Shown: one piece after another, positions 26,371 to 49,786 of the stretch | How positions within the stretch are numbered: position 1 is the first letter of the stretch | How the letters are laid out: each line of letters begins with the position of its first letter | Origin: Formosa agariphila KMM 3901 | Lineage (GTDB): Bacteria > Bacteroidota > Bacteroidia > Flavobacteriales > Flavobacteriaceae | Reading direction: 5' to 3' | Assembly: GCF_000723205.1 (NCBI RefSeq) | Contig: NZ_HG315671.1 | Span: 2,267,351-2,331,350, forward strand | DNA length: 64,000 nt | Position numbers and translations under genes: made by a program | The notes under the pieces: generated by a model | Seen by the model: only the letters and a program-made list of their open reading frames with translations | What the model was told of the DNA's origin: nothing | Database searches by the model: none

Positions 26371-26390
26371 TAAATCTTCTTTTTATATGG

Positions 26391-26435: not shown

Positions 26436-26450
26436 TCAAAATCGAACTTC

Positions 26451-31734: not shown

Positions 31735-31776
31735 TTAAATTTTGAAAGGCAGTATCTCATAAACTGTGTAAGTTTT

Positions 31777-31812: not shown

Positions 31813-31840
31813 ATTCATTAATTTTAACTTTTACACACTT

Positions 31841-33037
31841 ATGAAACCAGAAGATTTATTAAACGAAGACTTTTTAAAACAATTCAAGAATGCACCAGAG
31901 CTAACATCCTTTTTAGAACAGTTGCACAAACGTGGTATTGAGAAGTTACTAGAAGGGGAACTAGATGCCCATTTAGACTACGATAAGCACAAAAAAAGTA
32001 AAGCAGCCAACCTTCGAAATGGTTACACTAAAAAGAAATTAAAATCCGTTTTAGGAGAAACAGAGATTCAAGTTCCTCGAGACCGTGATAGTTCTTTTAA
32101 TCCTTTAATTGTAAAGAAAAGAGAAAGTACAACAGAAGGCATCGAAAATATTATTATATCGCTTTATGCCAAAGGCATGAGTAACAGTGATATTGAAGAA
32201 CAAATACGTGAGCTGTACGATTTTAATATTTCTACATCCACTATTTCAAGGATTACAGATAAGATTACAGAAGATGTTATTGCTTGGCGGAACAGGCCTT
32301 TGGAGGCCACTTACCTAATTGTTTGGATGGATGGCATCGTATTTAAAGTTAGGGAAAACTCTAAAGTCATAAACAAGACTATTTATATTGCAGTAGGCCT
32401 GAGAACAGATGGCAAAAAGGAAGTCCTAGGATTATGGTTAGGTAAAAATGAATCTTCAGCCTTTTGGATGAGTGTTTTAACCGATATTAAAGCTCGAGGA
32501 ACTCAAGATATACTTATCACAGCTACCGATAATTTAAATGGATTTACGGATACTATTAAAACTATTTTTCCGAAATCAACGACTCAAATTTGTGTTGTGC
32601 ATCAAATAAGAAATTCGTGTCGTTACGTGGTCTGGAAGGACAAAAAGGAATTTACTCGTGACATGAAGCAAATCTATACTGCTCCTACAAAAGAAGCTGC
32701 CAAAGCTGCTTTAAATGACTTCAAAACTAAATGGGATTCTAAATATTCTTACGCCATTAAAAGTTGGGAAAATAATTGGGATGAGCTTACAGTATTCTTT
32801 GATTTTCCTATTGAAATAAGAACCATAATCTACACCACAAATCTTATAGAAAACCTAAATGGAAAGATACGGAAATACACAAAAAACAAACTCTCGTTTC
32901 CAACCGATGAAGCAGTTATGAAATCCGTGTTTTTAGCTTTGAGAGAAAGCACTAAAAAATGGACCATGCCAATCAGAAATTGGGGAGTGATACTAAATCA
33001 ATTTTTAGCTATATTTGAAAACAGGATTAAGTTATAA
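31841..33037 (+). CDS. IS256-family (mutator-type) transposase
   Basis: 398 residues, the normal length of the family. The DDE catalytic residues fall in [10 protein letters not shown] (first Asp, ~residue 161), [11 protein letters not shown] (second Asp, ~226) and [17 protein letters not shown] (Glu, ~336). The Mutator signature with [12 protein letters not shown] lies near residue 252. The N-terminal ~90 residues, [31 protein letters not shown], form the DNA-binding part. It catalyses copy-paste transposition through a circular intermediate in studied relatives. Complete and likely active. Confidence 0.97.
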
Positions 33038-33113
33038 ATAACCTAACCCTGAAATTTTGAACTTACACACTTTTTAGGATAGTGTCTTTTGAAAGATTGT
33101 TTACTATCATTTT

Positions 33114-35042
33114 TTAAAAATGCCATCTCACAAAGGCTTCCATAGCCGCATAATGAGCTAACCCTAATAAATGATAAATCTCTGCTGTTTCGCCATTTCT
33201 ATCTTCTGCACGTTGCCAAAATTCTCTACTATCTGCCCCTTGAAACACGACACCATCCTTTTGAGATTGATGCTTAAATATTCCATGACGCTTTTCCAAT
33301 ACTTGGTCAGGACTCATTGGTACTGCCATTTCTATCTCATCTACATTCCACTCTTGCCATGCGCCTCTGTACAACCAAACCCAACAGTCTTTCATATACT
33401 TTTTTGGTTTTAGTGCTTTTACTGCTGTAAATATCGCATCTAAACAGACCTTATGCGTCCCGTGTGGATCGGCTAAATCGCCCGCTGCATAAATTTGATG
33501 TGGCTTTATCTTATCGATTAATGCCATTGTCAACTCGATATCTTCATCACCTAAGGGTTTCTTTTCTATTGCTCCGGTTTCATAAAATGGCATTTCCATA
33601 AAATGGATGTGGGCATCTGGTAAGCCAATAAATTTTGCTGCTGCATGAGCTTCTCCTTTTCGTATTAACCCTTTTATATAACGCACTTCTGGGATATCTA
33701 TCTCACTCCCTTTTTTATTCTCTAAAAAGGCAACTGCTTTTTTATAAATGTTCTCGGCCTCTAAACTTTCAATACCAAATTTAGCATTATAATCGCATAC
33801 AAATCCTGCAAAACGTAATGCCTCATCATCTGAGACAGCTATGTTTCCAGAAGTTTGATAACCAATATGTACTTCGTGACCTTGTTCTTGTAAACGCTTA
33901 AAGGTTCCTCCCATACTTATCACATCATCATCTGGATGCGGACTAAATATAAGTACACGTTTCTTTGCGGGTTCTGCACGCTCCGGACGTTTAGAATCGT
34001 CTGCATTGGGCTTGCCTCCTGGCCAACCTGTGATGGTATTTTGTAGTCTGTTAAAAATCTTAATATTTATATCGTAAGCAGGTCCTGAATCGGCTAATAA
34101 ATCACTCATACCGTTCTCTATATAATCGGCATCTGTAAGCATTAAAATCGGTTTCTTTAAATGTAATGCTAAGCCTAGAACTGCTTTTCTAATTAACTTA
34201 TCTGTCCAAACTATTTTCTCGACTAACCAAGGTGTATTGATACGTGTTAACTTTGATGATGCTTCTTTATCTAAAACAAACGTAACATTATCATGTTCTT
34301 GTAAGAATGATGCCGGAACGAGATTAGTTACTTGACCTTCTACCGATTGTTTTATAATATTAGATTTACCTTCTCCCCATGCCATTAAAATAACACGCTG
34401 AGATTCCATAATTATTTTAACTCCTAAAGTAATTGCGGTTCTTGGGGTATTATTTAAACCTAAAAAATCGCTACTTGCCGCTACTCTTGTAATGTGGTCT
34501 AAGGCTACTAATCGTGTTTTTGAATTTTGTAGTGAACCTGATTCATTAAAACCGATATGTCCATTTCCTCCAATTCCTAATATTTGTAAATCAATACCTC
34601 CTAAAGCTTCAATCTTAGATTCGTAAGCATCGCAATAATCAGCGATTTCCTCTTTTGATAAAGTACCGTCTGGAATATTACAGTTTTCTGGTAAAATATC
34701 GACATGATTAAATAGAAGCTCTTTCATAAATCGCACATAACTATTTACTGAATCTGGCTCCATAGGATAATATTCGTCCAAGTTAAAAGAAATCACATTC
34801 TTAAAACTTAATCCTTCTTCCTTGTGTAGACGCACTAATTCTGCATATAGCCCTTTTGGAGATGACCCTGTAGCAAGACCTAAAATACAAGGTTGCTTTT
34901 GTGATTGTTTAACCTTAATTAAATCGGCAATCTCCTTAGCTACTGCCTTTGATCCTGAATTAGAATTTTCGTAAACTACCGTTCCTATATTTTCAAATCG
35001 CTTTTCAAATCCTGTGGCTTTGTCTATATTACTTTTTAGCAT
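33114..35042 (-). CDS. nagB: Glucosamine-6-phosphate deaminase fused to a PIG-L/LmbE deacetylase-like domain
   Basis: 642 residues, two enzymes in one chain. Residues ~1-300 are NagB, converting GlcN-6-P to fructose 6-phosphate and ammonia: ILGLATGSSPKGLYAELVR, VISFNLDEYYPM, and GIGGNGHIGFNESG with the catalytic His. Residues ~365-642 are a PIG-L-type zinc de-N-acetylase: RVLIFSPHPDDDVISMGGT (H-P-D-D zinc motif) and AAGDLADPHGTHKVCLDA (late His ligands); both motifs are intact. No nagA is present nearby, so the second domain could remove acetyl from GlcNAc-6-P before the first deaminates it (inference). It is the last gene of the minus-strand amino-sugar locus; IS copy 2 inserted 27 bp past its stop. 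Confidence 0.9.
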   Translation of the reverse strand: MLKSNIDKATGFEKRFENIGTVVYENSNSGSKAVAKEIADLIKVKQSQKQPCILGLATGSSPKGLYAELVRLHKEEGLSFKNVISFNLDEYYPMEPDSVNSYVRFMKELLFNHVDILPENCNIPDGTLSKEEIADYCDAYESKIEALGGIDLQILGIGGNGHIGFNESGSLQNSKTRLVALDHITRVAASSDFLGLNNTPRTAITLGVKIIMESQRVILMAWGEGKSNIIKQSVEGQVTNLVPASFLQEHDNVTFVLDKEASSKLTRINTPWLVEKIVWTDKLIRKAVLGLALHLKKPILMLTDADYIENGMSDLLADSGPAYDINIKIFNRLQNTITGWPGGKPNADDSKRPERAEPAKKRVLIFSPHPDDDVISMGGTFKRLQEQGHEVHIGYQTSGNIAVSDDEALRFAGFVCDYNAKFGIESLEAENIYKKAVAFLENKKGSEIDIPEVRYIKGLIRKGEAHAAAKFIGLPDAHIHFMEMPFYETGAIEKKPLGDEDIELTMALIDKIKPHQIYAAGDLADPHGTHKVCLDAIFTAVKALKPKKYMKDCWVWLYRGAWQEWNVDEIEMAVPMSPDQVLEKRHGIFKHQSQKDGVVFQGADSREFWQRAEDRNGETAEIYHLLGLAHYAAMEAFVRWHF

Positions 35043-35135
35043 AATATTTTGTTTTATTGTGATTTGTATCTCTATTTATTTACTCTAATTTCTATTTTGT
35101 GTATGCTATAATTAAAGCCTATTTCAATTCCTTAA

Positions 35136-36365
35136 TTATTTATATAGCAAATATTTTACTCTTCTCTCTTTAAATTCATCTAATCCCAATTGCCAAATCT
35201 CTTTAATAGCACTAGCAGACAATCCGTTTTCTATTTCTTTTTGTAATCTTTTAGTTCCTGCCAATTTCGAAAAAAACGGATTAAAAAAAGAAGCTTTATC
35301 TAATGAAGAGTTATAAGCTGCCATTAACCAATCTAAATTTATAACATTGTATTTTTCTTCATTCATCAAATCCATCCCATAGCATAATTCACCGTTATAT
35401 TTTGGTGTTTTTGAGCCAAAATTTGGTCGTGGTGTAAAACTAAAATCGAAAGGTGAATTTGGAAGCGTAGGCGCTCCAAAAACCTGAAACTGCATTTCTG
35501 TACCTCTTCCACAACTAACTATTGTTCCTTCAAAAAAACAAAGACTTGGATATAAATTAACAGATACTGCATTTGGCAGATTTGGAGAAGGCTTTATAGG
35601 TAAAGCATATTCAGAATCATGTGTATATCCATTTAGCAAAACTACTGTCAAATCACACTGAACCTCATTATTCAACCATTTTTCACCGTTAATCATTTTT
35701 GCATATTCACCAATAGTCATTCCATAAACAACAGGAACAGGGTGCATCCCTACAAAACTTTTAAGTTCCGCTTCAAGTATTGGCCCATCTACATAATGTC
35801 CATTAGGATTTGGTCTGTCTAATACAACTACAGGAATATTCAACTCTGCACAAGCTTCCATTATATAATGTAATGTAGATATATAAGTATAGAAACGCAC
35901 CCCAACATCCTGGATATCGAAAATCATAATATCTATATCTTTTAAATTTTCTTTTGAAGGCTTACTATTTGTCCCATAAAGTGATACAATAGGTAGCCCT
36001 GTTGCAGCATCTACCCCATCAACTATATGCTCACCCGCATCTGCTCTACCACGAAATCCATGTTCTGGTGCAAACACTTTTTTTACATCAATATTTAATA
36101 GCATTAAAGAATCTACTAAATGGATTTACTGAGATTGATTATCTCCTTTAAAAATAACACTCGTTTGATTTGCAGTAACACCTACTTTTTTTCCTTTCAG
36201 TAAAGGTAAATACACATCGGTTTGATTTGCTCCAACACTAATTAACTCCTCTTTATCTTCCAACGCAGTCATCTTCACTTTAGTAACAGCTCTATTTATC
36301 TGTTCAGAATTACCGTTACAAGACAAACATGTAATAATTAAAATTATAAGACTAAAAATCTTCAT
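35136..36365 (-). pseudogene. namZ: DUF1343 / NamZ-type exo-beta-N-acetylmuramidase, interrupted by in-frame TAA
   Basis: A lipoprotein start MKIFSLIILIITCLSCNGNS (lipobox LSC) runs to residue 79, then TAA (36126-36128), then in the same frame IHLVDSL and MLLNIDVKKVFAPEHGFRG continue to 35136. There is no indel: the whole 410-codon frame aligns with the intact 413-residue paralogue at 48545, including FDIQDVGVRFYTY, VLDRPNPNGHYVDGP, MTIGEYAKMINGEKW and CGRGTE. The stop sits where the paralogue has Phe (SFEHLVDSL). A restart at ATG 36104 would give a 322-residue product without signal peptide. Family members (GH171) remove MurNAc from the non-reducing end of peptidoglycan fragments. Conservation past the stop suggests a very recent mutation or a sequencing error. 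Confidence 0.88.
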
Positions 36366-36392
36366 TATTATAAACTTTAATTAAATGAATTT

Positions 36393-38051
36393 TTATTTAA
36401 GTTCACTGTTAATAGATGCCGGCAACTTACCTAATGCTTCTTTTTCTCCTAAAACAATTAGAGCAGAAATACGTTGTGCAACATCTGTATTTTCATAAGA
36501 TACGATAACTCCCTCTATATTCTGAAAATGAATTTCTTTTAAGCTATACTGACTCGCAAAAACGCTTAAAATGACTTGATTATTATTTGCTATTTCCTCT
36601 ATTAACAAGGCTTTTTCAGAATCTATTTTCTTAACATCTCTATAATTTAATCGGTGATAGCTAATTATAACTTTATCGTATTTTTTAAGCTCTTTTAATA
36701 ATTGAGAAGGATTAATATTTGAAACATCAAAAATATTAACATGAAACTTTATTGCATTAAAAAACGAGTCAGAATTACCATCGCCTAATTTTAAGAAAGC
36801 TATTTTTTCGTTGTTATTAGTTTGAATGGGTAAAACTTGTTTTTCATTTTTAATAATTGTTATTGAATTAGTGAGTGCTTCTTCATTTAATAATACATTA
36901 GAATCAGGAGTTAAATCATCTACCAAACCTTCTATTTTAATAGGCTTAAATAGATTTAAATTAGCATTGTACTTAGCTGCTAATATTTTTTTAACAGAAT
37001 GAGCTAAACGTGCCTCTGTTATTTCTTTATTATTATAAGCTTCTACAATTTTAAAAATTCCTTTTGTAGAATTATTAGTAAAAAGTAATACATCATTCCC
37101 TGCTTTAAATGCAGCTAAATCTACATCGCCTGGCTCTTTATAATTCGCTACTCCTTTCATATTTAAAGCATCTGTAAACACTAAGCCTTTATAACTTAAT
37201 TGTCCTTTTAATATGTTGGTAACTATATTATAAGATAATGAAGAAGGCAATCCTTCTTTAGACTCTAAACTCGGAACATTTAAATGTGCTACCATAACAC
37301 CGGCAACCTCTTTTTTAAATAATTCTTTATACGGATAAAACTCTACATTATTTATTTGTTCTTTTGAAAAACTGACTGTAGGTAAAGTTTTATGTGAATC
37401 TTTAGCAGTATCTCCATGACCTGGAAAATGTTTAGCACAAGCTAAAACACCTTCACTTTGCATACCTTTTGTAAATGCCAAAGCCTTACTAGTAACGTTA
37501 AACTTATCTTCTCCAAAAGAACGTACTCCTATAATAGGATTATTAGCATTGGTATTAATATCTACAACGGGAGCAAAATTTAGATGTACACCTAAACGTT
37601 TTGAATTAATTCCTATCTGTTTTCCTATCTGTTCTATTATAGCGTCACCCTGTATTGCTCCTAACGTCATATTATAAGGAAATCCAGATGTACTATCTAA
37701 ACGCATATTTAGTCCCCATTCTGCATCCATGCCTATTAATAATGGTACTTTAGATAACGATTGGTACATGTTTGTTAATTTAGCCTGACGCACAGGACCG
37801 CCTTGAAAAAATATAAGTCCACCAATTCCATTTGTTTTAATTAAATTCTGAATAGAATCTACATGACTTTTAGGTCTATTAGAATATGCTGCCACCATAA
37901 ACAATTGTCCTACTTTTTCCTTTAAAGACATGCTGTTGTAAATACTATCTACCCACTTTTTTTTAGAATTATTAGTTTCAATTTTATAATCATGTGGTAG
38001 AAATCCAAGAGAAAGTAACGCTAGAATTCCTATAGCTAAAATCTTATTCAT
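36393..38051 (-). CDS. nagZ: GH3 beta-N-acetylglucosaminidase, NagZ type, exported
   Basis: 552-residue exo-hexosaminidase of glycoside hydrolase family 3. The NagZ signature KHFPGHGDTAKDSHKTLP (residues ~206-223, with the His/Asp general-acid dyad loop) is intact, and FTDALNMKGVANY near 290 holds the nucleophile Asp region. An N-terminal hydrophobic segment MNKILAIGILALLSLGFLP signals export, so it acts in the periplasm as in Bacillus, not in the cytosol as in E. coli. Residues ~360-552 form the second GH3 C-terminal domain. It overlaps murQ by 8 bp, so the two are coupled. With NamZ it would strip GlcNAc and MurNAc alternately from glycan chains. Confidence 0.92.
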   Translation of the reverse strand: MNKILAIGILALLSLGFLPHDYKIETNNSKKKWVDSIYNSMSLKEKVGQLFMVAAYSNRPKSHVDSIQNLIKTNGIGGLIFFQGGPVRQAKLTNMYQSLSKVPLLIGMDAEWGLNMRLDSTSGFPYNMTLGAIQGDAIIEQIGKQIGINSKRLGVHLNFAPVVDINTNANNPIIGVRSFGEDKFNVTSKALAFTKGMQSEGVLACAKHFPGHGDTAKDSHKTLPTVSFSKEQINNVEFYPYKELFKKEVAGVMVAHLNVPSLESKEGLPSSLSYNIVTNILKGQLSYKGLVFTDALNMKGVANYKEPGDVDLAAFKAGNDVLLFTNNSTKGIFKIVEAYNNKEITEARLAHSVKKILAAKYNANLNLFKPIKIEGLVDDLTPDSNVLLNEEALTNSITIIKNEKQVLPIQTNNNEKIAFLKLGDGNSDSFFNAIKFHVNIFDVSNINPSQLLKELKKYDKVIISYHRLNYRDVKKIDSEKALLIEEIANNNQVILSVFASQYSLKEIHFQNIEGVIVSYENTDVAQRISALIVLGEKEALGKLPASINSELK

Positions 38052-38877
38052 TACTAATTATATTAAATTCATTAATTACATTTCTAACACTTTTATGTTT
38101 AAGTAATAAACTTTTAGCCGTTTTTTCATCAATACCCAATTCATCCACAATCATCTTCACACCTCTTTTTACAAGTTTCTTATTAGATAATTGCATATTA
38201 ACCATCTTGTTTCCTTTTACACGACCAAGCTTAATCATAACCGTTGTAGAAATCATATTTAAGGCTAATTTCTGAGCTGTTCCAGCTTTCATTCTTGTGC
38301 TTCCTGTTATAAATTCCGGACCTACAACTAACTCAATTGGGTAGTCTACCTCTAAAGATAATGGAGAATCTAGATTACAGGTTACACATCCGGTTAAGAT
38401 ATTGTGTTCTTTAGCTTTTTTTACGCCTCCTATTACGTATGGCGTGGTTCCAGACGCTGCAATACCAACAAGCACATCGTTTTCGCTAATATTATATTTT
38501 TTTAAATCTTCCCAAGCTAACTCTGTATCGTCTTCAGCATTTTCTACTGCTTTTCTTAGCGCAAAATCACCACCAGCGATTAGTCCAATAACCCAGTCGT
38601 CTGGCACACCATAAGTTGGCGGGCATTCTGAGGCATCTAAAACACCTAGTCTTCCGCTTGTCCCTGCACCTATATAAAATAAGCGCCCTCCTGCTTTCAT
38701 TTTATCATAAATAACATCTACCAATTTTTCTATAGAAGGCACTGCTTTTTCTAAAGCGTTTGGTACTGTTTTATCCTCCACATTCATATTAGTGAGCAGC
38801 TCATTAGTGCTCATTTTTTCCAAATTATTATAGACTGATTCTTGCTCTGTTGTTAGCTTATTTTTCATGTTCAGCAT
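38044..38877 (-). CDS. murQ: N-acetylmuramic acid 6-phosphate etherase MurQ
   Basis: 277-residue SIS-domain enzyme that cleaves the D-lactyl ether of MurNAc-6-P to give GlcNAc-6-P. The signature GAGTSGRLGVLDASECPPTYG (residues ~70-90) is complete; VGIAASGTTPYVIGGVKKAKE (~135) and GPEFITGSTRMKAGTAQKLALNM (~183-205) follow. It is cytosolic. Either ATG 38877 or the ATG three codons later (38868, MKNKLTTEQE) may be used. It sits between the symporter and nagZ and shares 8 bp with nagZ. Its substrate needs a kinase or PTS, and neither is in this window. Confidence 0.96.
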   Translation of the reverse strand: MLNMKNKLTTEQESVYNNLEKMSTNELLTNMNVEDKTVPNALEKAVPSIEKLVDVIYDKMKAGGRLFYIGAGTSGRLGVLDASECPPTYGVPDDWVIGLIAGGDFALRKAVENAEDDTELAWEDLKKYNISENDVLVGIAASGTTPYVIGGVKKAKEHNILTGCVTCNLDSPLSLEVDYPIELVVGPEFITGSTRMKAGTAQKLALNMISTTVMIKLGRVKGNKMVNMQLSNKKLVKRGVKMIVDELGIDEKTAKSLLLKHKSVRNVINEFNIISNE

Positions 38878-38886
38878 TTTTTCAAT

Positions 38887-40347
38887 TTAATTTATATTTT
38901 TTTTATCTCTATAAAGGATTAAACATATTACTGTTAAAAAAGCATTAACAAAAATGTTCATAAATCCGAAATCGAAATCAAACAAAAGAATAAAATAATG
39001 GTTTAAAAGATAGGTTACCATAGGCATAACTATACATATAAAAGGTACTGCCGTGTCTTTTACTTTTATTTTAGTAAAAATTCCAAACAAATACAGTCCC
39101 AATAACGGACCATATGTATATCCTGCCACTTTAAATATTAGTGATATTACATTTCCTTTACTCTGAGAAAACACCATAATTATTATAAAAACAACTATTG
39201 AAAAACCAAATAACACACGATTTTTCATAATCTTTTTTTCTTTTGAATTCTTATGTTTAATATCTAGAAAGTCATGTGTAAATGAAGTTGTTAAGGCGGT
39301 TAAAGCAGAATCTGCACTTGAAAACGAAGCTGCTGTAATTCCCAAAATAAAACTTAGACTCGCAATTGTCCCAAAATGGTTTAAGGATAACATAGGGAAT
39401 AACGTATCTGTATTAATAAATTTCCCATTCTCTACATCTAGTTCTATTCCAAATTTTTCGGCATACATATACAGCATCACTCCCAATCCTAAAAACAGAA
39501 ATTGTGTAACTGCTAATACCAAACTAAAGGTTAAAATATTGCGCTGTGCTTCTTTCTTATTTTTACAGGTTAACGTTTTCTGCATCATGTTTTGATCCAG
39601 ACCAACCATGGCTACAGCGATTAGAACTCCTGAAATAAACTGCTTAAAAAAGTTACTTCCTGAATTAAAATCCCAATTAAAAATTTTAAAATAGTCATGA
39701 TTAACAACAGCAGAAGTCGTCTCTACCAAATTTAAATTTAAAGCATTTTTTATGACATAAATAGTTACGCCCACAGAGAGTAGCAAGAAAAATGTTTGCA
39801 ACGTATCTGTCCACACAATAGTTTTAATTCCAGATTTATGAGTGTACAACCAGATTAATGCTAGAATAACAAGTACCGTAACGAAGAACGGAATATGAAA
39901 AGCATCAAACACTGCATATTGTAAAATTTTTGCTGCAAGCAACAATCTAAGCGCTGCACCAAATGACTGTGATATTAGAAAAAAAAGCGAACCTGTTTTA
40001 TAAGATTTAATTCCGAATCGCGATTCTAAATACGTATAAATAGATACCAATTTTAAATCGTAATAAATAGGAACAAGCACATACGTTATAAACACATAAC
40101 CAACTACATTCCCGAAAACAAATTGTAAATAATAAAAATAATTAGTCCCTACCATACCTGGAATAGATACAAAGGTCACCCCAGATAGTACGGCTCCAAT
40201 CATTCCGAAAGCAACAACTTGCCATGGTGATTTACGATCTCCTGTATAAAAAGACTCGTCACTTGTATTTTTTGAAACTACATGAGAAATAAGGAGTAAT
40301 ACTCCAAAGTAAGATGCTATAATGAATAAGATAAGTGTTGCGCTCAT
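38887..40347 (-). CDS. Sodium:solute symporter (SSS family), candidate MurNAc/amino-sugar importer
   Basis: 486-residue inner-membrane transporter with about 13 hydrophobic segments by eye. SSS features: DESFYTGDRKSPWQVVAFGMIGAVLSGVTFVSIPG near the N-terminus, GIKTIVWTDTLQTF (~residue 173), VAMVGLDQNMMQKTLTCKNKKEAQRNIL (~245-272) and FSSADSALTALTTSFTHDFLD (~345-365), with the Ser/Thr-rich Na site. It is 9 bp upstream of murQ. In Tannerella forsythia a symporter of this superfamily (MurT) is linked to MurNAc kinase and MurQ, so MurNAc uptake is a reasonable inference; sequence alone cannot fix the substrate. Confidence 0.87.
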   Translation of the reverse strand: MSATLILFIIASYFGVLLLISHVVSKNTSDESFYTGDRKSPWQVVAFGMIGAVLSGVTFVSIPGMVGTNYFYYLQFVFGNVVGYVFITYVLVPIYYDLKLVSIYTYLESRFGIKSYKTGSLFFLISQSFGAALRLLLAAKILQYAVFDAFHIPFFVTVLVILALIWLYTHKSGIKTIVWTDTLQTFFLLLSVGVTIYVIKNALNLNLVETTSAVVNHDYFKIFNWDFNSGSNFFKQFISGVLIAVAMVGLDQNMMQKTLTCKNKKEAQRNILTFSLVLAVTQFLFLGLGVMLYMYAEKFGIELDVENGKFINTDTLFPMLSLNHFGTIASLSFILGITAASFSSADSALTALTTSFTHDFLDIKHKNSKEKKIMKNRVLFGFSIVVFIIIMVFSQSKGNVISLIFKVAGYTYGPLLGLYLFGIFTKIKVKDTAVPFICIVMPMVTYLLNHYFILLFDFDFGFMNIFVNAFLTVICLILYRDKKNIN

Positions 40348-40376
40348 TTATATTTTTTACTATTTATTTTATATTC

Positions 40377-41564
40377 TTAATATATTTTAACTTCATTAAC
40401 CTGAGAGCTGTATTCATTTAATATTTCAAAATCATCAAGAGATTCAATACTAGAATTACTTTCAACCCAATGCCTCAAAGCATCCGTACCATTAATTATA
40501 TCTATTGGTTTTTGATGATAATTATATTCAAAAGGTGGGTCTTTCCAAGCAAAACTACCCCCTAGGTACTGATATAATTCTCTTAGTATAAATTGCCCTA
40601 CCCGCCAAGGTTTATATGTTTTTCTATCAGTTATAAGAAGTTGAAAACCACCACAAACATGGTTTTTATATTTATCGAAGGTTGGTAAAAATGTCATTGG
40701 ACGTAATACAAATCCTTTTAATTTTGATTCTGTAATACGATCGAATAATCTATCATTATAAAACATATAAGGGTCTATTTTTGGAATCCCAAAAACCTCC
40801 AAAGGCTGTGTTGTTCCTCTCCCTTCACTTAATATAGTACCTTCAATCGCTACAATAGCAGGAAAAGTAAGCGCACTTTGTGACCTTGCTAAATTTGGAG
40901 AAGGCAAAATCCATGGTAATTTTGTATCTTCAAAATACATGTTACGATTCCAATTTTTCATTTTCACAACTTTTAATTGTGATTTCTCTTTAGTCCAAAA
41001 TTCTTGATGCATTAATGCCAACTCTCCTATAGTCAATCCATGACGAACAGGAATTTTATGCCTACCTATAAAAGATTCAAATTTTAAGTCTAAAATATTA
41101 CCTTCTATATCTACACCGTTTATTGGATTTGGCCTGTCTAAAACGACTACCTGAATATCTTTTCTACTGCATTTTTCTAATAAAAGAGTAAGTGTATAGA
41201 TATAAGTATACATTCTACACCCGACATCTTGTAAATCCACGAAAATATGATCTATACCTTCTAGCATTTCATCTGTTGGGATACGCGTTTCAGAATATAA
41301 AGAGTAAATGGGTATCTTAAAAAACGGATGTATATAATGATTCGTTTCTATCATATTATCTTGTGCATCTGTAGAAAACCCATGTTGTGGACCAAATAGT
41401 TTAACCAACCTAGTACCAAAAATTTCTTTAAACTTTAAAGCTGCATGAGTACAAGCTGAATCTATAGAAGCATTATGACAAAGTAGAGCTACATTTCCAG
41501 TGAATGATTCGTATAATTCCCGATGGTTTACAAGAACATCTAAACCTGTTATAACTTTTTTCAA
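40377..41564 (-). CDS. DUF1343 (NamZ-like) protein without signal peptide
   Basis: 395 residues starting MKKVITGLDVLVNHRELY, with no signal or lipobox, hence probably cytosolic, unlike its two paralogues at 35136 and 48545. The family core is present: LFGPQHGFSTDAQDNM (PxHGF), FVDLQDVGCRMYTYIYT, VVVLDRPNPINGVDIEGN, RHGLTIGELALMHQEFW, SPNLARSQSALTFPAIVAIEGTILSEGRGTTQPLEVFG. Sequence is clearly divergent from the paralogues (for example GRGTTQPLE versus GRGTE). It could hydrolyse MurNAc-containing disaccharides after uptake, or act on another sugar. It follows susD after a terminator hairpin and precedes the symporter by 29 bp. Confidence 0.85.
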   Translation of the reverse strand: MKKVITGLDVLVNHRELYESFTGNVALLCHNASIDSACTHAALKFKEIFGTRLVKLFGPQHGFSTDAQDNMIETNHYIHPFFKIPIYSLYSETRIPTDEMLEGIDHIFVDLQDVGCRMYTYIYTLTLLLEKCSRKDIQVVVLDRPNPINGVDIEGNILDLKFESFIGRHKIPVRHGLTIGELALMHQEFWTKEKSQLKVVKMKNWNRNMYFEDTKLPWILPSPNLARSQSALTFPAIVAIEGTILSEGRGTTQPLEVFGIPKIDPYMFYNDRLFDRITESKLKGFVLRPMTFLPTFDKYKNHVCGGFQLLITDRKTYKPWRVGQFILRELYQYLGGSFAWKDPPFEYNYHQKPIDIINGTDALRHWVESNSSIESLDDFEILNEYSSQVNEVKIY

Positions 41565-41589
41565 AACGATACATTAAATTACAAATACT

Positions 41590-41629
41590 AAAAAAAAGAG
41601 GTGAGTAAAGAAATAAACTTATCTCACCC
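41590..41629 (-). terminator. Terminator hairpin after susD
   Basis: On the minus strand GGTGAG (41628-41623) pairs with CTCACC (41605-41600), with partial pairing of ATAAG/CTTTA inside, then a run of seven or more T down to 41590. It lies 90 bp after the susD stop, so it would make downstream genes less expressed than susCD, a common arrangement in Sus-like operons. Confidence 0.7.
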
Positions 41630-41718
41630 CTGCTATCAACTTCAAAACAATTCAAAAAAATGAATATTATTTTACTTCTAATCAATACTAAAAGAACATA
41701 ATAATATAAAATCTAATT

Positions 41719-43206
41719 TTATTCAACATCCCACCACATTCTAGTTAAAAGCCCATCTGGACCTTGCTGCTCTATAGCTAATGCTACATTTTCAGGGTTA
41801 TTTAATTTTTCTGAAGATGGGTATATAAACCTTCTAGGTAAATTTCCTCCTGTAAGCGTTGCCGCAACATCTGCAGGCACTAATTCTGGATAACCTGATC
41901 TCTTCCAATTTGAGAATGTTTCTAAACCATTTCCAAATGTAGCTACCCAATACTGCTCGTTTATCATTTTCAAAGCCTGAGAAGCCTCAAAAGGATTAGC
42001 TACCAAATAATCATTTATTTGTTCTGGCGCTATATAACCTCCATCTCCATATAAGGATAAATATTCCATTGCAGCAATTACTCCATTGTTATAATGTTCT
42101 TCAACATCTCCTCCAGCTAATCCCCAACGTTCTGCTGCCTCAGCTAACATAAATTCTACTTCAGCATAAGTTTGAAAAAAATATGGAGCATCATAAACTA
42201 CCACTCCTGATCCACCAAAAATATTAATGTTTGGTTTTGAATTGGTTGGAATTCCTGCTGCTTCATTTATATCTTGACCAAATTGAAGCTCCGGATCTGT
42301 ATTTCCATCTACTGTAGAACACAATACAGAAACTCGTGGATCATTTCTATCTTTCATAAAATCTAAAAAAGTTTTAGAAATTTTTATTTGATTAACCCCT
42401 CTTGAAGTAAAACTCTTAGTTAACGGATTAACATTAGGTCCTCCATCATTTGCTGAATTTTCATATTTAGTGAATGCTATATCATCATTACTAGTCATAA
42501 CTCCACCACTAATAGCTTTAGAAGCCCATGATTCTGAAGCAGAATTATCTACTTTTACCATACGCATTGCCAAACGTAACATTAAAGAATTAGCAAATTT
42601 TTGCCATTTAAAATTATCTCCAGCAAATAATAAATCTGCAGATCCGTAAGAATTTGATCCAGCTGTTTCTAAAGTTAAAGCAGAAGCTTCTAAGGTTGCT
42701 AACATATCAAGATAGATATCACTTTGTTTGTCATATTTAGGAAACCGTATACCATTTAAAAAACCTAAACCGGCTTCTGTATATGGAATATCTCCATAAA
42801 GGTCTGTTATTCTACTAAATATTAAGACTTTTTGTATTCTTGCAATAGCCAAATCTGCAATTGCAGTTGGGTCCTCACTCGATTCTAATTGCGCTTCTAA
42901 ATCAATGATGTTTTTTACAGTATTAGAAAACTGTTCTTCAAAAAATTGATGTGTATTTCCCTCTTGGTATAGGAATGACACATATGAAGTATCATTAAGA
43001 TGTTGAATATTCTGCATTAAATGGATTACATTCCAAAATAAGCAAGCAACATAATTACTACCTCCTGTATACAACTGAATAAATGTTAATTTCGTTGCTG
43101 GTTCAAGCTGCGTAGGCTTAGTTGGATTTACATTAAGTTCTTCATAGCCTTTATCGCAAGATCCCAATGACAAAACTAGTACTGTTATAATTATTAATTT
43201 TTTCAT
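41719..43206 (-). CDS. SusD/RagB-family outer-membrane lipoprotein
   Basis: 495-residue glycan-binding lipoprotein that caps a SusC barrel. Lipobox: MKKLIIITVLVLSLGSCDKGYEELN, with the SusD-typical N-terminal NVNPTKPTQL. Typical later elements are KYDKQSDIYLDMLATLEA, LLFAGDNFKWQKFANSLMLRLAMRMV, PYFFQTYAEVEFMLAEAAERWG and QALKMINEQYWVATFGNGLETFSNWKRSGYPEL, matching the SusD-like_2 branch. 12 bp after susC. In context it would bind peptidoglycan fragments or chitooligosaccharide-like amino-sugar oligomers; ligand not provable here. Confidence 0.94.
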   Translation of the reverse strand: MKKLIIITVLVLSLGSCDKGYEELNVNPTKPTQLEPATKLTFIQLYTGGSNYVACLFWNVIHLMQNIQHLNDTSYVSFLYQEGNTHQFFEEQFSNTVKNIIDLEAQLESSEDPTAIADLAIARIQKVLIFSRITDLYGDIPYTEAGLGFLNGIRFPKYDKQSDIYLDMLATLEASALTLETAGSNSYGSADLLFAGDNFKWQKFANSLMLRLAMRMVKVDNSASESWASKAISGGVMTSNDDIAFTKYENSANDGGPNVNPLTKSFTSRGVNQIKISKTFLDFMKDRNDPRVSVLCSTVDGNTDPELQFGQDINEAAGIPTNSKPNINIFGGSGVVVYDAPYFFQTYAEVEFMLAEAAERWGLAGGDVEEHYNNGVIAAMEYLSLYGDGGYIAPEQINDYLVANPFEASQALKMINEQYWVATFGNGLETFSNWKRSGYPELVPADVAATLTGGNLPRRFIYPSSEKLNNPENVALAIEQQGPDGLLTRMWWDVE

Positions 43207-43218
43207 CTTATATTATTT

Positions 43219-46200: not shown

Positions 46201-46407
46201 AGCATCTTCTGTATTAATAGAATAGTTTCCATCAAAATCCGTCACAGCTCCTTTACTCGTTCCTTCAATAGAAACGTTAACACCTATTAAAGGCATATCT
46301 GTCTTTTTTTCCGTAACAGTTCCTGAAATAGTACCTGTTTGAGAAAAACCACTTTGCACAAAAAGCAAGACAACCATGGTAATTAATTGAAAATAATAAT
46401 TTTTCAT
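43219..46407 (-). CDS. SusC/RagA-family TonB-dependent outer-membrane transporter
   Basis: 1062 residues from ATG 46407, chosen because MKNYYFQLITMVVLLFVQSGFSQ is a clean signal peptide; 40 further codons upstream add a second hydrophobic stretch and are unlikely. Domains: CarboxypepD_reg (GTISGTVTEKKTDMPLIGVNVSIEG, residues ~26-105), TonB box-like VVVTALGIKRESKALGYS (~110-127), plug (SLQGRVAGVNISTSSSGASG, VVIRGASSLTGNNQPLYVVDGVPI, ISSINPDDIASVSVLKGSSAAALYG) and a 22-strand barrel ending FGVPSTKSYGFSMNFKF with C-terminal Phe. It imports oligosaccharides with TonB energy together with SusD. A promoter with the ACGCAA motif lies about 50 bp upstream. Confidence 0.95.
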   Translation of the reverse strand: MKNYYFQLITMVVLLFVQSGFSQTGTISGTVTEKKTDMPLIGVNVSIEGTSKGAVTDFDGNYSINTEDAAGKSLVFSSLGFKMVSIVLNGGTQVVNVSLEEDATSLDEVVVTALGIKRESKALGYSLTEVDGDEMSQVKTTSAVNSLQGRVAGVNISTSSSGASGSSRVVIRGASSLTGNNQPLYVVDGVPIINNTNGSVVGATNTGSGDGGDDISSINPDDIASVSVLKGSSAAALYGSLASNGVIMITTKSGKGSQGFGIEYSTSYMFDEINTDLQNFQTIYGAGTNNLKPGHEYDDNGNAVEIADSALATDEAFTNSLLSWGAKMDGSLVYNWDGVKRPYSYTGNNLDKFYDTGSTAVNSVAVSKGGESYNYRLSFSNLENKDIFPESTLNRKSFGLNVSSDITPKLKSTVNAKYVIEKVHNRINLGDTPGNANTVAYVLPTSLDINDLKPGINEEGTELLFQPSQFIQNPYWVVNNFNSDDKKNRLTASTTLRYDFTDWLYATGRAGIDTYDLSRKKVTPYGTAYRPTGELTQSKFTYSLFDADIMLGIQKTLTGKISTNSIIGTNTRTNSFEGLSATGREFVVIGLEDINNTTLPEPDNSYYKTKMSSIYGSFEFDYDNFLYLTFTGRNDWFSTLSYPGKTTPNNDFYWSLSGSLLISEAFEMPEAINYIKLRASYAQVAGGASDAYSLNLDYAITGSFQGQSFGQLNGNSIPNPDLVPFQKDEIEVGFETRFFSNRLNLDVAYYQNKTQNDIVEASASQSSGFTSSVLNIGELQNKGIELLIGGTPIYTDDFSWNTSFNFSFNDSEIVHTDDENTPINVDGSETRSRTAIISHIVGERYGVIYGSSYKRDEDGNIMYDVNSTIPKPIQGEYKILGEGVAPYTFGFSNTFRYKSVSLGFLIDAKYGGSVHSGTNRELMIRGLHEKTLEGRETGLVVSGIDDATGEAFTTTVAPENLRTYYGLIAAESSGISEEFVYSTDFVKFRELSLSYNFPKKALDKIFINDIRISLIARNLFFFYRAIDNVDPEASLNNLNSQGIERFGVPSTKSYGFSMNFKF

Positions 46408-46459
46408 ACGTGTTAATATTTTAGTTACAATGTTAAAACTATGAAAAATAAATACAAAA

Positions 46460-46465
46460 ACGCAA
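46460..46465. promoter_or_regulatory. ACGCAA motif at the susC promoter
   Basis: ACGCAA on the plus strand (TTGCGT toward susC). It overlaps the end of TTATTTTG, a 7/8 -7-like box for susC, so a bound regulator would block the promoter. The hexamer recurs three times in the nagX/deoR intergenic region. Confidence 0.4.
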
Positions 46466-46543
46466 AATAACAGTAAAAATATGCAGTTTTTACCCATTAA
46501 ACTCGAAAATAGACTATCAAATAACAATATGAAGTATTATAAT

Positions 46544-47653
46544 CTATATTTTTATGAATATCTTATTCTTATACAGAACAAGACAAATTAACCAAAAAAC
46601 AAAAACGTGAATCAAAGCAAACAATAAAGACCCATTCATATTACCAAAGACAGGAACTAACAGATGCTCATACATATATTTATAACCAGATATAGTGTCT
46701 CCTGATTCTCCAACATGTATTTTAATTAAATAACTAATAGTCTTAACATATAGTCCAGAAAACACAAAAATAAACAAAGGGTTAGTACCAAAATGAACAA
46801 AAGGTTTCGACCATCTACTAAACCCCTTATAATCAATAATAAAAATTAAAAGCGCTAACAATAAGATACACAAACCAGAGGTAAAAAGCACATAAGAACT
46901 TGTCCATAACGCCTTGTTAATTGGAAAAATAAAACTCCAAATCCATCCTAAAAATACGAACATACTACCATAAATCAACAACTTCCTTATTTTCCTCAAA
47001 ATAACACGCTCTTTATCAATAATTTGCCCTATAAAGAAACCAATAATGACAGTACCAACAGCTGGTATTGTTGACAATACACCTTCAGGATCAAATGGAA
47101 CACCAAACCCCTTATACACATGCTCTTCCTCAAAAAGAAAGATGTCAAATTCTCGAACAACATTACCTATTAATGCATAAGGTTCCATATCTGCTCCAAA
47201 TAACAGCAGTGCCCAGTACCCAATAAGAATCACACTCAAAACCAACAACAAATGATTTCTTTTGAAAGCCAAACAAAGAATAGAACCAACTCCATACGCT
47301 AGAGCAATACGCTGTAACACTCCCATAATTCTAACTGTACTGAAATCAAAAAATGGAAATAAATTCAAAACAAACCCTAGCAAAAATATTACGAATGTTC
47401 GTATTATGATTTTTAAAGCGGATTCCCTAGATAAACTAGTTTGATATTTCGAAAACGAAAACCATACAGACACTCCAACTATAAATAAAAAAAAAGGAAA
47501 AACTAAATCTGTTGGATTACAACCGTGCCATTTAGCATGCCTAAGTGGAGCATACACATAACTCCAACTTCCAGGAGTATTTACTAAAATCATAAGAGAG
47601 ATTGTGATTCCCCTCAATACATCTAAAGAAATAAGCCTATTTGAAACCTTCAT
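46544..47653 (-). CDS. NagX-like membrane acyltransferase (HGSNAT/DUF5009 family)
   Basis: 369 residues, about ten membrane spans. The N-terminus ISLDVLRGITISLMILVNTPGSWSYVYAPLRHAKWHGCNPTDLVFPFFLFIVGVSVWFS is diagnostic: the family related to human heparan-alpha-glucosaminide N-acetyltransferase, with the conserved W-H-G-x-x-x-T-D-L-V-F-P-F-F. Bacterial NagX genes occur in GlcNAc/chitin regulons of Xanthomonas and Shewanella. It may transfer acetyl groups across the inner membrane onto amino sugars. First gene of the minus-strand locus and divergent from the DeoR regulator; susC starts 137 bp further on with its own promoter. Role in the pathway is inferred from context. Confidence 0.82.
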   Translation of the reverse strand: MKVSNRLISLDVLRGITISLMILVNTPGSWSYVYAPLRHAKWHGCNPTDLVFPFFLFIVGVSVWFSFSKYQTSLSRESALKIIIRTFVIFLLGFVLNLFPFFDFSTVRIMGVLQRIALAYGVGSILCLAFKRNHLLLVLSVILIGYWALLLFGADMEPYALIGNVVREFDIFLFEEEHVYKGFGVPFDPEGVLSTIPAVGTVIIGFFIGQIIDKERVILRKIRKLLIYGSMFVFLGWIWSFIFPINKALWTSSYVLFTSGLCILLLALLIFIIDYKGFSRWSKPFVHFGTNPLFIFVFSGLYVKTISYLIKIHVGESGDTISGYKYMYEHLLVPVFGNMNGSLLFALIHVFVFWLICLVLYKNKIFIKI

Positions 47654-47679
47654 GTTTTTTTTATTTATAATTTATAAAT

Positions 47680-47777
47680 ACGCAACTATTTTCAAATATA
47701 TAAGTTTTACCAAACAATTGCATTTAAAAACACATTATCACGCAAAAAAATGCATATATTAGCTAATATATACGCAA
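47680..47777. promoter_or_regulatory. Three ACGCAA motifs in the nagX/deoR divergent control region
   Basis: ACGCAA at 47680-47685, 47740-47745 and 47772-47777. The first is just downstream of the predicted nagX -7 box; the third is 12 bp before the deoR ATG. TGCATTT and AAATGCA form an additional dyad around the middle copy (about 47719-47753). With the copy upstream of susC, these are candidate operators of the DeoR-type regulator (inference). Confidence 0.45.
47693..47700 (-). promoter_or_regulatory. Predicted -7 box of nagX
   Basis: Reads TATATTTG on the minus strand, exact TAnnTTTG, 40 bp upstream of the nagX ATG; an ACGCAA motif begins 8 bp downstream of it. Confidence 0.5.
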
Positions 47778-47789
47778 ATTATTTTCTTT

Positions 47790-48539
47790 ATGAAAAAAAA
47801 AGAGAGACAACAAAGAGTTTTAGATGAAGTTAGTATAAATAGAAAAGTTAGTTCAAATTTTTTATCTGAAAAGCTAAAAGTATCAGAAGACACTATCAGA
47901 AGAGACATTAAAGAACTAGACCAAAAAGGGATGTTGACTAAAATTCACGGCGGTGCTATTTCTAACATTCAAAAGCTATACCACTATAACGAAGATATTA
48001 TCTACAATAGAGAAGAAAAAATTCTCATTGCACGAAAAGCAATTTCTTTAGTTAAAAATAATATGGTGTTAGTTATGAGTGGAGGAACCACAAATTTAAT
48101 GCTCGCTAAATTATTACCAAAAGATATTAAACTAACAATTTACACTTACAGCCTACCGATTGCAATGCAATTAACAGAACTTCCACTGGCTGAAACCATA
48201 TTTATTGGAGGTAAAATACATAGAAGCTCCATGGTTACCATTGGTATTGATGTTATTCAATATGTTTCGAATATAAGAGCAAACATATGCTTCATGGGAG
48301 TAAGCGCAATACATCATAATACAGGCGTAACAGACGAAGGTTATGAAGTTTCTTTAATAAAAAAAACTATGATTAAAGCATCCGAAAAAATCGTCTATTT
48401 AACAACCTCCAATAAACTAAACTTAAGCCACAATTATGATGTATGTAATACTACAGAGATTGATACAATAATAACAAACCTTGATTTAAAAGACGAAAAA
48501 CTAAAACCCTATATATCCGCAGGCATTAACTTGATATAA
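47790..48539 (+). CDS. DeoR/GlpR-family transcriptional regulator of the amino-sugar locus
   Basis: 249 residues. The N-terminal HTH is textbook: KERQQRVLDEVSINRKVSSNFLSEKLKVSEDTIRRDIKELDQKGMLTKIHGGA (residues ~4-57). The C-terminal DeoRC sensor domain has VMSGGTTNLMLAKLLP (phosphosugar-binding loop, ~94-110) and FMGVSAIHHNTGVTDEGYEVSLIKKTMI. Members usually repress sugar operons and release DNA on binding a phosphorylated sugar. Divergent from nagX-susCD and 5 bp upstream of an intact namZ. A MurNAc-6-P or GlcN-6-P type inducer fits the context, but is inference. Confidence 0.92.
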   Translation: MKKKERQQRVLDEVSINRKVSSNFLSEKLKVSEDTIRRDIKELDQKGMLTKIHGGAISNIQKLYHYNEDIIYNREEKILIARKAISLVKNNMVLVMSGGTTNLMLAKLLPKDIKLTIYTYSLPIAMQLTELPLAETIFIGGKIHRSSMVTIGIDVIQYVSNIRANICFMGVSAIHHNTGVTDEGYEVSLIKKTMIKASEKIVYLTTSNKLNLSHNYDVCNTTEIDTIITNLDLKDEKLKPYISAGINLI

Positions 48540-48544
48540 ATTAT

Positions 48545-49786
48545 ATGAAAACACACAAATTATTATCTCGCATTTTATTAATTGTATTCTCTTTCTCCTT
48601 ATTAGCATTAAGTTGCAAAAACTCTAATAAAAATAAAAATTTCAAACTAACCACAGACGAACGAAAAACAGAAAACATTATTGTTGCAGCAAACCAAACA
48701 GAAAAATATTTAGAATTATTAAAAGGAAAAAATATTGCAGTAGCTGTAAATAACACTTCGGTAATATTTAAAAATGATAGTATAAATTCGTTTGAACATC
48801 TTGTTGACTCTCTTTTATCACTTGAAATTAAAATAAAAAAAATGTTTGCTCCTGAACATGGTGTAAGAGGTATTGTAAATGGAGGCAAAAAAATTGAAAA
48901 CGGGTTAGATGAAAAAACTGGACTTGAAGTTGTATCTCTTTATGGAGATAATTACAAGCCCAACAAAGAACAATTAAAAAATATTGACTTAGTACTATTC
49001 GATATCCAAGACGTTGGCGCAAGATTTTACACTTACCTATCAACGATGCATTATATTATGGAGGCTTGTGCAGAAAACAATATTCCTGTTATTGTTTTAG
49101 ATAGACCAAACCCAAATGGACACTATATTGACGGCCCCATAGTAGAACCTCAATTTAAAAGTTTTGTCGGACTTCATCCCGTACCTATTGTTTACGGTAT
49201 GACAATTGGCGAATATGCAAAAATGATTAACGGAGAAAAATGGCTTAAGAATAAAGTTCAATGCGACCTAACTGTAATTCCTTTACAAAACTACACTCAC
49301 AATTCAACCTACACACCTCCATTAAGACCATCTCCAAACCTACCGAACGACATATCTATTAATTTATACCCAAGCTTATGCTTATTTGAAGGCACTAATG
49401 TTAGTTGCGGGAGAGGAACAGAAACCCCCCTACAAATGTTTGGATCTCCTTTTTTAAATAAGGACAAATACACCTTCAGTTTTATACCTCAACCAAATTT
49501 TGGAGCAAACAATCCAAAGAACAAAAATCAAATATGCTTTGGTTTAGATTTGTCTAAAGAAAAAAGACTTAGTAGTTTAAACCTAAATTGGTTAATAAAT
49601 GCTTATCACGCAACAGATGATAAAGACCAATTCTTTTCAAGAACTGAATTCTTTAACAAACTAGCTGGAACTGATAAATTAAAAAAACAAATTGAAGAAG
49701 GATTAACTTTCGATCAAATAAAAGCTAATTGGCAAGATGATTTGATCGCTTTCAAAAAAATAAGAGAAAAATATTTAATTTACTAG
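48545..49786 (+). CDS. namZ: DUF1343 / GH171 exo-beta-N-acetylmuramidase NamZ, lipoprotein
   Basis: 413 residues. Lipoprotein signal MKTHKLLSRILLIVFSFSLLALSCKN with lipobox LSC. The family core is complete: FAPEHGVRGIVNGG (residues ~101-114), LFDIQDVGARFYTYLSTMHYIMEAC (~150-174), VLDRPNPNGHYIDGP, YGMTIGEYAKMINGEKW, RPSPNLPNDISINLYPSLCLFEGTNVSCGRGTE. Bacillus subtilis NamZ (YbbC) of this family releases MurNAc from the non-reducing end of peptidoglycan fragments. It is 5 bp after deoR and probably cotranscribed, so its expression is tied to the regulator. Closest relative in the window is the broken copy at 35136, which it may now replace. Confidence 0.92.
   Translation: MKTHKLLSRILLIVFSFSLLALSCKNSNKNKNFKLTTDERKTENIIVAANQTEKYLELLKGKNIAVAVNNTSVIFKNDSINSFEHLVDSLLSLEIKIKKMFAPEHGVRGIVNGGKKIENGLDEKTGLEVVSLYGDNYKPNKEQLKNIDLVLFDIQDVGARFYTYLSTMHYIMEACAENNIPVIVLDRPNPNGHYIDGPIVEPQFKSFVGLHPVPIVYGMTIGEYAKMINGEKWLKNKVQCDLTVIPLQNYTHNSTYTPPLRPSPNLPNDISINLYPSLCLFEGTNVSCGRGTETPLQMFGSPFLNKDKYTFSFIPQPNFGANNPKNKNQICFGLDLSKEKRLSSLNLNWLINAYHATDDKDQFFSRTEFFNKLAGTDKLKKQIEEGLTFDQIKANWQDDLIAFKKIREKYLIY

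Follow-up and report, generated by a model that had tools for sequence, protein, structure and literature searches.

Gene content of the locus

Within the window (the whole stretch of 64,000 nucleotides from Formosa agariphila KMM 3901 analysed here), positions 33114-49786 hold a minus-strand run in the order nagX-susC-susD-namZ2-SSS-murQ-nagZ-namZ3-nagB/PIG-L, from which deoR and an intact NamZ lipoprotein gene diverge (Table 1). Every gene named in the first-pass annotation is found there, in the arrangement it described. Spacing between the minus-strand genes is operon-like, at -8 to +154 bases. susC and susD adjoin with a 12-base gap, and GH3 and GH171-family enzymes share the locus with a DeoR regulator; these are features of a polysaccharide utilisation locus (PUL).

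Table 1. Features of the locus (positions in the window)
Feature	Position	Strand	Evidence or context
nagB-PIG-L fusion	33114-35042	-	NF002557 1050 bits
namZ3, NamZ lipoprotein gene, broken	35136-36365	-	In-frame TAA at 36126-36128
NagZ-type GH3 beta-N-acetylglucosaminidase	36393-38051	-	PF00933 2e-74; NF003740 160.7 bits, under cut-off 207
murQ, MurNAc-6-phosphate etherase	38044-38877	-	TIGR00274 322 bits vs cut-off 302
SSS sodium symporter, proposed MurNAc importer	38887-40347	-	PF00474
namZ2, GH171-family	40377-41564	-	PF07075 + PF20732
susD surface lipoprotein	41719-43206	-	PF12771 6e-79
susC TonB-dependent outer-membrane transporter	43219-~46407	-	TIGR04056 613.7 bits; translation
nagX-like membrane protein gene	46544-47653	-	NF046061 NagX 148.7 bits vs cut-off 480; first gene of minus-strand run
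Possible DeoR operator CGCAAAAAAATGCA	47741-47754	.	deoR-nagX spacer
deoR, DeoR-family regulator	47790-48539	+	PF00455/PF08220; divergent
namZ1, intact NamZ with lipobox (by eye), PEHG motif	48545-49786	+	PF07075 2.6e-78

The first gene of the run is called only NagX-like because it scores under the NagX cut-off and has no Pfam match. The susC reading frame is open from 46527, with its likely ATG at 46407. The NagZ-type protein shows, by eye, an export signal at its N-terminus, and its closest solved structure is the GH3 beta-N-acetylglucosaminidase 6k5j, with which the KHFPGHGDT.DSH loop aligns; the symporter is closest to 5nv9, titled putative sodium:solute symporter, and NamZ1 to 4jja (E=9.5e-108). 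NamZ_N and NamZ_C domains are present in all three NamZ copies. One of these genes had been described as broken, and namZ3 does carry a single in-frame TAA at about codon 80, with no frameshift seen alongside it.

Conservation of the locus in relatives

A search for the syntenic block in relatives, proposed at first pass, recovers the gene content and, in part, the gene order. Loci were drawn from the best 60 of 69 other places and the best 80 of 183; removal of nine duplicates left 132, with 38, 70, and 24 per tier. Loci with less than 6.5 kb downstream of susD were left out of the main counts (8/38, among them L139, which has murQ; 6/70; 2/24). The close set comprises 30 loci with SusD 55-100% identical, the window included, duplicates dropped, and enough downstream sequence present; the distant tiers were not deduplicated and contain at least five apparent same-genome pairs (L059/L148, L060/L160, L063/L157, L065/L172, and L067/L177), which leave zero counts unaffected. 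Weak matches (nagZ below 40%, NagZ-beta-lactamase below 33%, symporter below 40%) were not counted.

murQ is present in 27 of the 30 clade loci versus 0/64 and 0/22 of those with more distant SusD, and neither murQ nor NamZ occurs in any of these 86 distant loci (in each case among the matches listed). murQ, NamZ, and a NagZ-type gene occur together in 25/30. The contrast for murQ (27/30 versus 0/86) leads us to reject chance assembly, and recurrence of content and partial order in relatives likewise makes chance an implausible cause. The 30 loci share descent and do not count as 30 independent cases. deoR is found in 27 clade loci and a nagX-like gene in 18; nagB-PIG-L is not specific to the clade (6/30 versus 12/64 and 2/22 in the distant tiers, among the matches listed). 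Gene order can be rearranged while linkage is kept, for example in L056, L107, L113, L115, L123, and L171. Three clade loci are without murQ: in L128 the partner genes are missing altogether, L129 has just a weak GHL10+CBM9 gene, and L055 has a NagZ-type gene together with a distant deoR.

On a tree built from 37 clade members (all 38 except L139, which was too short) plus a sample of 30 others, to which a long-branch warning applies outside the clade, the SusD branch of the window has 100/100 support. The murQ label changes 4 times on this tree versus 21.5 times for shuffled labels; the clade rows without murQ are mostly cut contigs. Among 40 hand-chosen murQ neighbourhoods of other families, a SusC-like ORF appears in one (L206), not adjoining murQ. 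As a negative on general MurQ-SusCD adjacency this survey is limited by its queries (BLAST with the SusC and SusD of the window only, so that distant ones may be missed), by its sampling (without other families of the class to which Flavobacteriaceae belong), and by four neighbourhoods without a murQ ORF by BLAST (L208, L216, L226, and L228).

Accessory genes and the choice of substrate

Several accessory genes of the relatives have peptidoglycan roles: GHL10 (5/30), AnmK (2/30), a dipeptide-epimerase relative (2/30), and NlpC/P60 (1/30) are each found in 0/86 distant loci, a comparison biased in favour of the clade by queries taken from clade loci. Together with the murQ distribution (27/30 versus 0/86), these genes support the peptidoglycan-directed PUL proposed in the first-pass annotation. 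A GlcD/YdiJ-like FAD/Fe-S oxidase, scoring under the curated cut-offs of the matched models, is present in 8/30 clade loci versus 0/86 and could use the D-lactate released by MurQ. GH20 (2/30 versus 11/86) and MFS (3/30 versus 16/86) proved useless as markers, and an AlphaFold model of DUF6259 was set aside as too poor (mean pLDDT 37).

GH18 occurs in 13/30 clade loci versus 1/86 distant loci. A chitin or chito-oligosaccharide PUL with borrowed MurQ and NamZ would have room for these enzymes and for the GH20 of two clade loci, and nagX, nagB-PIG-L, and the GH3 NagZ would also be of use on GlcNAc polymers. We nevertheless consider this highly improbable and reject chitin as the target: GH18 and GH20 are absent from the operon proteins of the window; the GH18 of L046, the sole member searched, best matches the sporulation glycosylase YdhD among solved structures, with chitinases weaker; the closest solved relative of SusD by sequence is 5j5u (3.9e-69), with the chitin-binding AqSusD far weaker (6.6e-28); and chitin contains no MurNAc.

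MurQ, NagZ, and AnmK are classical enzymes of recycling, and NamZ has a role in the turnover of the Bacillus subtilis wall, so SusCD might instead regain turnover fragments of the cell's own wall as these leak through the outer membrane. Distribution makes this unlikely. Outside the locus the genome has another murQ and also a core NamZ, the latter in 6/6 genus genomes, so that the cell has no need of this locus to recycle its own wall; the PUL itself is patchy, with SusD at 65% identity or more in 13/397 family genomes. The T9SS tail on the L046 GH18 also points to action outside the cell.

The proposed route of MurNAc

The first-pass annotation led MurNAc to fructose 6-phosphate. The route as drawn is incomplete at the kinase and the deacetylase. 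murQ is linked to the SSS sodium symporter gene across a 9-base gap, as in systems of the MurT-MurK-MurQ type, but no kinase family is found among the locus proteins. Only one BadF-type kinase was found in the genome, and it lies away from the locus; by hand count on an alignment it has Lys-Ser-Leu at MurK Ser133-Pro134-Leu135 and Glu at MurK Thr94 (positions from passages of PMC10465942), residues from which specificity cannot be read. A relative of this kinase adjoins one SusD locus only, L064, in the distant tiers. Since no NagA scores over the cut-off in the genome, another enzyme must deacetylate, and the PIG-L half of NagB-PIG-L is perhaps a candidate.

A variant compatible with peptidoglycan import would also account for the absent MurNAc kinase. 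The chief imported unit would then be, in place of MurNAc-GlcNAc, the anhydro-disaccharide GlcNAc-anhMurNAc (or muropeptides); anhMurNAc would be released by NagZ, and AnmK, unlinked to the locus, would yield MurNAc-6P for MurQ. Unlike a proven MurNAc kinase, AnmK is clearly in the genome (206.6 bits versus a cut-off of 24), and it lies inside two of the clade loci. It is absent, however, from the visible stretch of the other 28, and the variant would presuppose an anhMurNAc transporter. Work by Mueller in 2021 reportedly has NamZ acting on non-reducing-end MurNAc, which suits non-anhydro fragments. We regard the variant as less likely than not.

Three NamZ copies

The exo-lytic role first assigned to NamZ does not simply extend to the middle copy. 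NamZ2 has no signal peptide, and PQHG replaces PEHG, with Gln in place of the putatively catalytic Glu. Gln stands at this position in all 15 readable copies (out of 17 NamZ2 ORFs, the other two being without that stretch); Glu is kept in 28/28 NamZ1-type ORFs of clade loci and in both solved relatives. Values of pN/pS between 0.16 and 0.30 indicate purifying selection on NamZ2, and in L123 the gene is divided between two ORFs. An AlphaFold model of the protein was too poor to use (mean pLDDT 55). NamZ2 was seen in few Flavobacteriaceae only (4/395 genomes of the class at E<=1e-70), mostly inside probable peptidoglycan PULs, and is found next to two unlike SusCD types. Speculatively, and with considerable doubt, NamZ2 might be a repurposed cytoplasmic GH171 protein rather than an ordinary exo-muramidase, one that may split a symporter-imported MurNAc disaccharide by other chemistry or may sense it; given its two unlike neighbours, two SusCD lineages may have become peptidoglycan-dedicated.

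A palindrome in the deoR-nagX spacer

A GCA-N6-TGC palindrome, a motif chosen after inspection of the spacers, is present in 25/30 of the deoR-divergent spacers, whereas shuffling gives a mean of 1.74 and at most 6. Across the genome GCA-W6-TGC has 41 sites versus 50 for the reversed control, and no site comes as close as 3 kb to the BadF kinase gene, anmK, the core namZ, or the second murQ, so support for the palindrome comes from its position only. Going by these spacers, the palindrome is perhaps the DeoR operator.

Proposed mechanism and known systems

Judged from gene identity, spacing, and conserved co-localisation, the locus is very probably a DeoR-controlled PUL for peptidoglycan. SusC and SusD would carry MurNAc-containing fragments through the outer membrane; lipoprotein NamZ1 would take MurNAc off non-reducing ends and exported NagZ would take off GlcNAc. 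MurNAc would reach the cytoplasm through the SSS symporter and be phosphorylated by a kinase encoded outside the locus; MurQ would convert MurNAc-6P to GlcNAc-6P and D-lactate, and deacetylation and deamination (NagB-PIG-L) would yield fructose 6-phosphate.

In Bacillus subtilis, a Gram-positive bacterium, NamZ, NagZ, and MurQ are likewise clustered, but with a PTS transporter and no known SusCD; the window combines them with susCD and an SSS symporter. Peptidoglycan-directed SusCD systems had been called little described at first pass, and they are indeed barely described, yet a counterpart has been published from a Urechidicola mussel symbiont (PMC10199937), and the Formosa locus joins this type of PUL. 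According to the sections of that paper available to us, most genes of the symbiont PUL are in murein metabolism and the substrate is left open by the authors; two of four SusCD pairs, not specified, are among the 50 most transcribed genes. deoR, susCD, a sodium co-transporter, murQ, nagB, GH3, and GH171 are common to both loci. The symbiont PUL has two susCD pairs, ampG, ampD, dacA, an epimerase, nhaC, GH18, and GH10; the Formosa locus contains a single susCD pair, nagX, and three NamZ genes, of which one is broken. In Tannerella forsythia, the MurNAc importer belongs to the sodium-symporter superfamily, and its gene accompanies murK and murQ (PMC5790795). This pairing of transporter and MurQ is shared with the window, but the accessible parts of PMC5790795 and PMC7670621 place the MurK kinase in the operon and name no SusCD, whereas the window has a susCD pair and no kinase.

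Implications

Most likely, this gene set lets a marine member of the Flavobacteriaceae (genus Formosa) take up and degrade cell-wall sugars from other bacteria, using an outer-membrane importer of its own. To our knowledge, there is no settled answer to how peptidoglycan fragments cross the outer membrane of Bacteroidota, even in Tannerella forsythia. That species depends on MurNAc from outside, as excerpts of PMC5790795 state. In the portions available of a PUL survey, the peptidoglycan families GH23, 24, 25, and 73 are under-represented in PULs, although present in several (PMC6499787); a count of that kind would miss loci whose enzymes are GH171, GH3, and GH18. With a nameable SusCD clade that has MurQ, NamZ, and NagZ as partners across many marine genera, several of them cultured, the idea that SusCD imports peptidoglycan can be put to a direct test, and the clade offers a marker for bacteria that live off other, dead ones.

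Locus organization

ORF and profile searches bore out every gene named in the first-pass annotation. The minus-strand run consists, in order, of nagX, susC, susD, namZ2, the SSS symporter, murQ, nagZ, namZ3, and nagB-PIG-L; its intergenic gaps measure -8 to +154 bases, deoR and namZ1 (the intact NamZ lipoprotein gene) are divergent to it, and the genome is a single contig of 4.23 Mb. The third NamZ gene, namZ3, is indeed broken, by one in-frame TAA; pN/pS beyond this codon is 0.24 and 0.21 against two relatives, which would fit a recent break. The Mutator-family element has imperfect (71%) 51-base inverted ends, and its edge lies some 20 bases away from the stop codon of nagB-PIG-L. Trehalose-type genes also lie in the window.

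Coordinates of features in the window
Feature	Position	Strand	Remark
Trehalose-type genes	24544-28661		GH15/TREH_N and GT20-trehalose phosphatase fusion
Mutator-family transposase	31841-33037	+	Within 31740-33094
TAA in namZ3	36126-36128		In frame
GCA-N6-TGC palindrome	47741-47754		deoR-divergent spacer

A SusD clade that travels with murQ

Querying 397 family genomes with the window SusD gave matches at E<=1e-60 in 60 of them and a SusD of at least 65% identity in 13. Neighborhoods were annotated for 60 of 69 other places and 80 named loci (the best 80 of 183), using BLAST against the window's own proteins plus a handful from relatives, and were tiered by SusD identity (>=55%, 40-55%, <40%). 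The >=55% tier, here the clade, comprises 38 loci once 9 duplicates are dropped; in 30 of them, the window included, the downstream sequence extends 6.5 kb or more beyond susD.

The window locus had been read as a polysaccharide utilization locus (PUL) for peptidoglycan, and the survey speaks for this: murQ accompanies 27/30 clade loci (all but L055, L128, and L129) vs 0/86 in the distant tiers. Neither murQ nor NamZ was found at 40-55% (0/64 each; symporter 2, nagB-PIG-L 12) or below 40% (0/22 each; nagB-PIG-L 2, GH18 1). Symporter and deoR each occur in 27 of the 30 clade loci, nagZ and namZ1 each in 23, nagX in 18, namZ2 in 15, and NagZ-beta-lactamase and nagB-PIG-L each in 6. The window locus is thus very probably a peptidoglycan PUL. 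A search for the set in other Flavobacteriaceae had been proposed as a check, and murQ, any NamZ, and a NagZ-type gene occur jointly in 25/30 clade loci; the proposed peptidoglycan PUL recurs across many genera of the family.

Thirty-seven clade members form one branch of the tree (100/100 support), and on the whole tree the murQ label needs 4 changes vs 21.5 with shuffled labels; the clade loci share ancestry. Gene order varies: in Gillisia (L115) murQ lies upstream of susC, in L123 it comes ahead of the symporter, and in L056 and L113 nagX has been relocated, so the partnership of murQ, NamZ, and NagZ with SusCD has survived rearrangement.

In the 40-55% tier (L057-L084 and others), a gene for an FG-GAP/ASPIC protein of ~1100 aa lies nearby in 44/64 loci; L057 also has PSD1 and DUF1501 proteins beside SusD.

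A candidate regulatory palindrome

GCA-N6-TGC is present in 25 of 30 deoR-divergent spacers from 29 loci (shuffled mean 1.74, maximum 6 in 300 rounds), a count to be read with the motif having been picked once part of the same spacers had been read, and with the spacers being related by descent. A half-site spacing of 6 is the outlier, occurring in 25 spacers, vs 10 for a spacing of 7 and at most 4 for other spacings tested. The AT-spaced form showed no genome-wide enrichment (41 sites vs 50 in the control).

Accessory genes

Further genes with peptidoglycan roles join the clade loci: GHL10, which we take to be the family of DigH, in 5/30 (L051, L113, L115, L123, L133), AnmK in 2/30 (L107, L108), an epimerase-family protein in 2/30 (L108, L115), and NlpC/P60 with SH3 in 1/30 (L115), each 0/86 in the distant tiers, counts biased toward the clade since the queries came from it. 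A weaker GHL10 adjoins SusD in L129. The nearest solved relatives of the L115 epimerase-family protein include dipeptide epimerases, e.g., L-Ala-D/L-Glu epimerase. PMC12288456 supports the action of DigH as a denuded-glycan hydrolase, and not its family assignment.

GH18 occurs in 13/30 clade loci, with the motif DGVN.DFE in 17/17 rows listed, duplicates counted. The one member searched (L046) carries a T9SS tail; its best solved match is YdhD, followed by chitinases, with SleL and YaaH lower. DUF6259 (~764 aa) lies between symporter and murQ in 7/30 (L047, L051, L052, L053, L105, L125, L130).

An FAD/Fe-S oxidase is found in 8/30; the L049 copy matched YdiJ and GlcD models below both cut-offs, and we infer that the oxidase would consume D-lactate released by MurQ. 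A relative elsewhere in the window's genome (L253, G000:C1:1945001-1957000) adjoins a GT4 gene and a NagZ-beta-lactamase fusion.

A proposed route from MurNAc to fructose 6-phosphate

The proposed route to fructose 6-phosphate stood in part. The genome encodes AnmK, two murQ over cut-off, and three NagB-PIG-L fusions; against this, nothing in it passes the NagA cut-off (top score 31.5 bits vs 225.65), and the one BadF-type kinase found is unlinked to the locus, beside a GAPDH-like gene as judged by eye. Among solved proteins, that kinase comes nearest to MurK-like and GlcNAc-kinase-like ones, and its sequence does not reveal its specificity. The PIG-L half of NagB-PIG-L may substitute for NagA. 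Given this inventory, the route is plausible, with two steps lacking an assigned enzyme.

An odd NamZ

NamZ2, the middle NamZ, is usually 394-396 residues long and by eye lacks a signal peptide. Across the 38 clade loci, the Glu of the PEHG motif is Gln in 15 of 17 NamZ2 ORFs (the other two lack that stretch) and Glu in 28/28 NamZ1-type ORFs; both solved relatives have Glu. The Gln is invariant across 12 aligned NamZ2, and 56 other positions are invariant both in NamZ2 and in 20 NamZ picked for the PEHG motif. Because pN/pS between NamZ2 pairs is 0.16-0.30, the gene is maintained.

At E<=1e-70, namZ2 occurs in 4/395 genomes of the class. It adjoins a different SusC/SusD pair in G123 (L249), and no SusCD lies beside it in G036 (L250). 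In Formosa algae (L251), an other-type SusCD pair, namZ2, murQ, and NagZ-beta-lactamase adjoin a window-type PUL copy. Second-type SusD proteins share 75% identity between L249 and L251, and relatives at 47-63% occur in L055 and L117. The two neighboring F. algae PULs (L251/L252) have unlike SusCD types, and the second extends onto a different contig, which carries its symporter, murQ, nagZ, and namZ1.

Relation to known systems

A SusCD system for peptidoglycan had been called little described. This holds insofar as the portions of open-licence literature searched yielded no experimentally proven peptidoglycan PUL; the kind has, however, already been glimpsed. In PMC10199937, passages on a Urechidicola symbiont describe a PUL that holds deoR, two susCD pairs, a sodium co-transporter, murQ, nagB, ampG, and GH3/18/171/10, most of its genes being for murein metabolism; two of the symbiont's four SusCD pairs, not named in those passages, are within its 50 most transcribed genes. 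Our Urechidicola MAG locus (L171) has the same core as that PUL, as far as described. Among tested systems, Tannerella forsythia MurTKQ comes closest for the inner-membrane part. What is newest is the SusCD clade as a marker, together with the palindrome that the spacers share and the unusual NamZ2.
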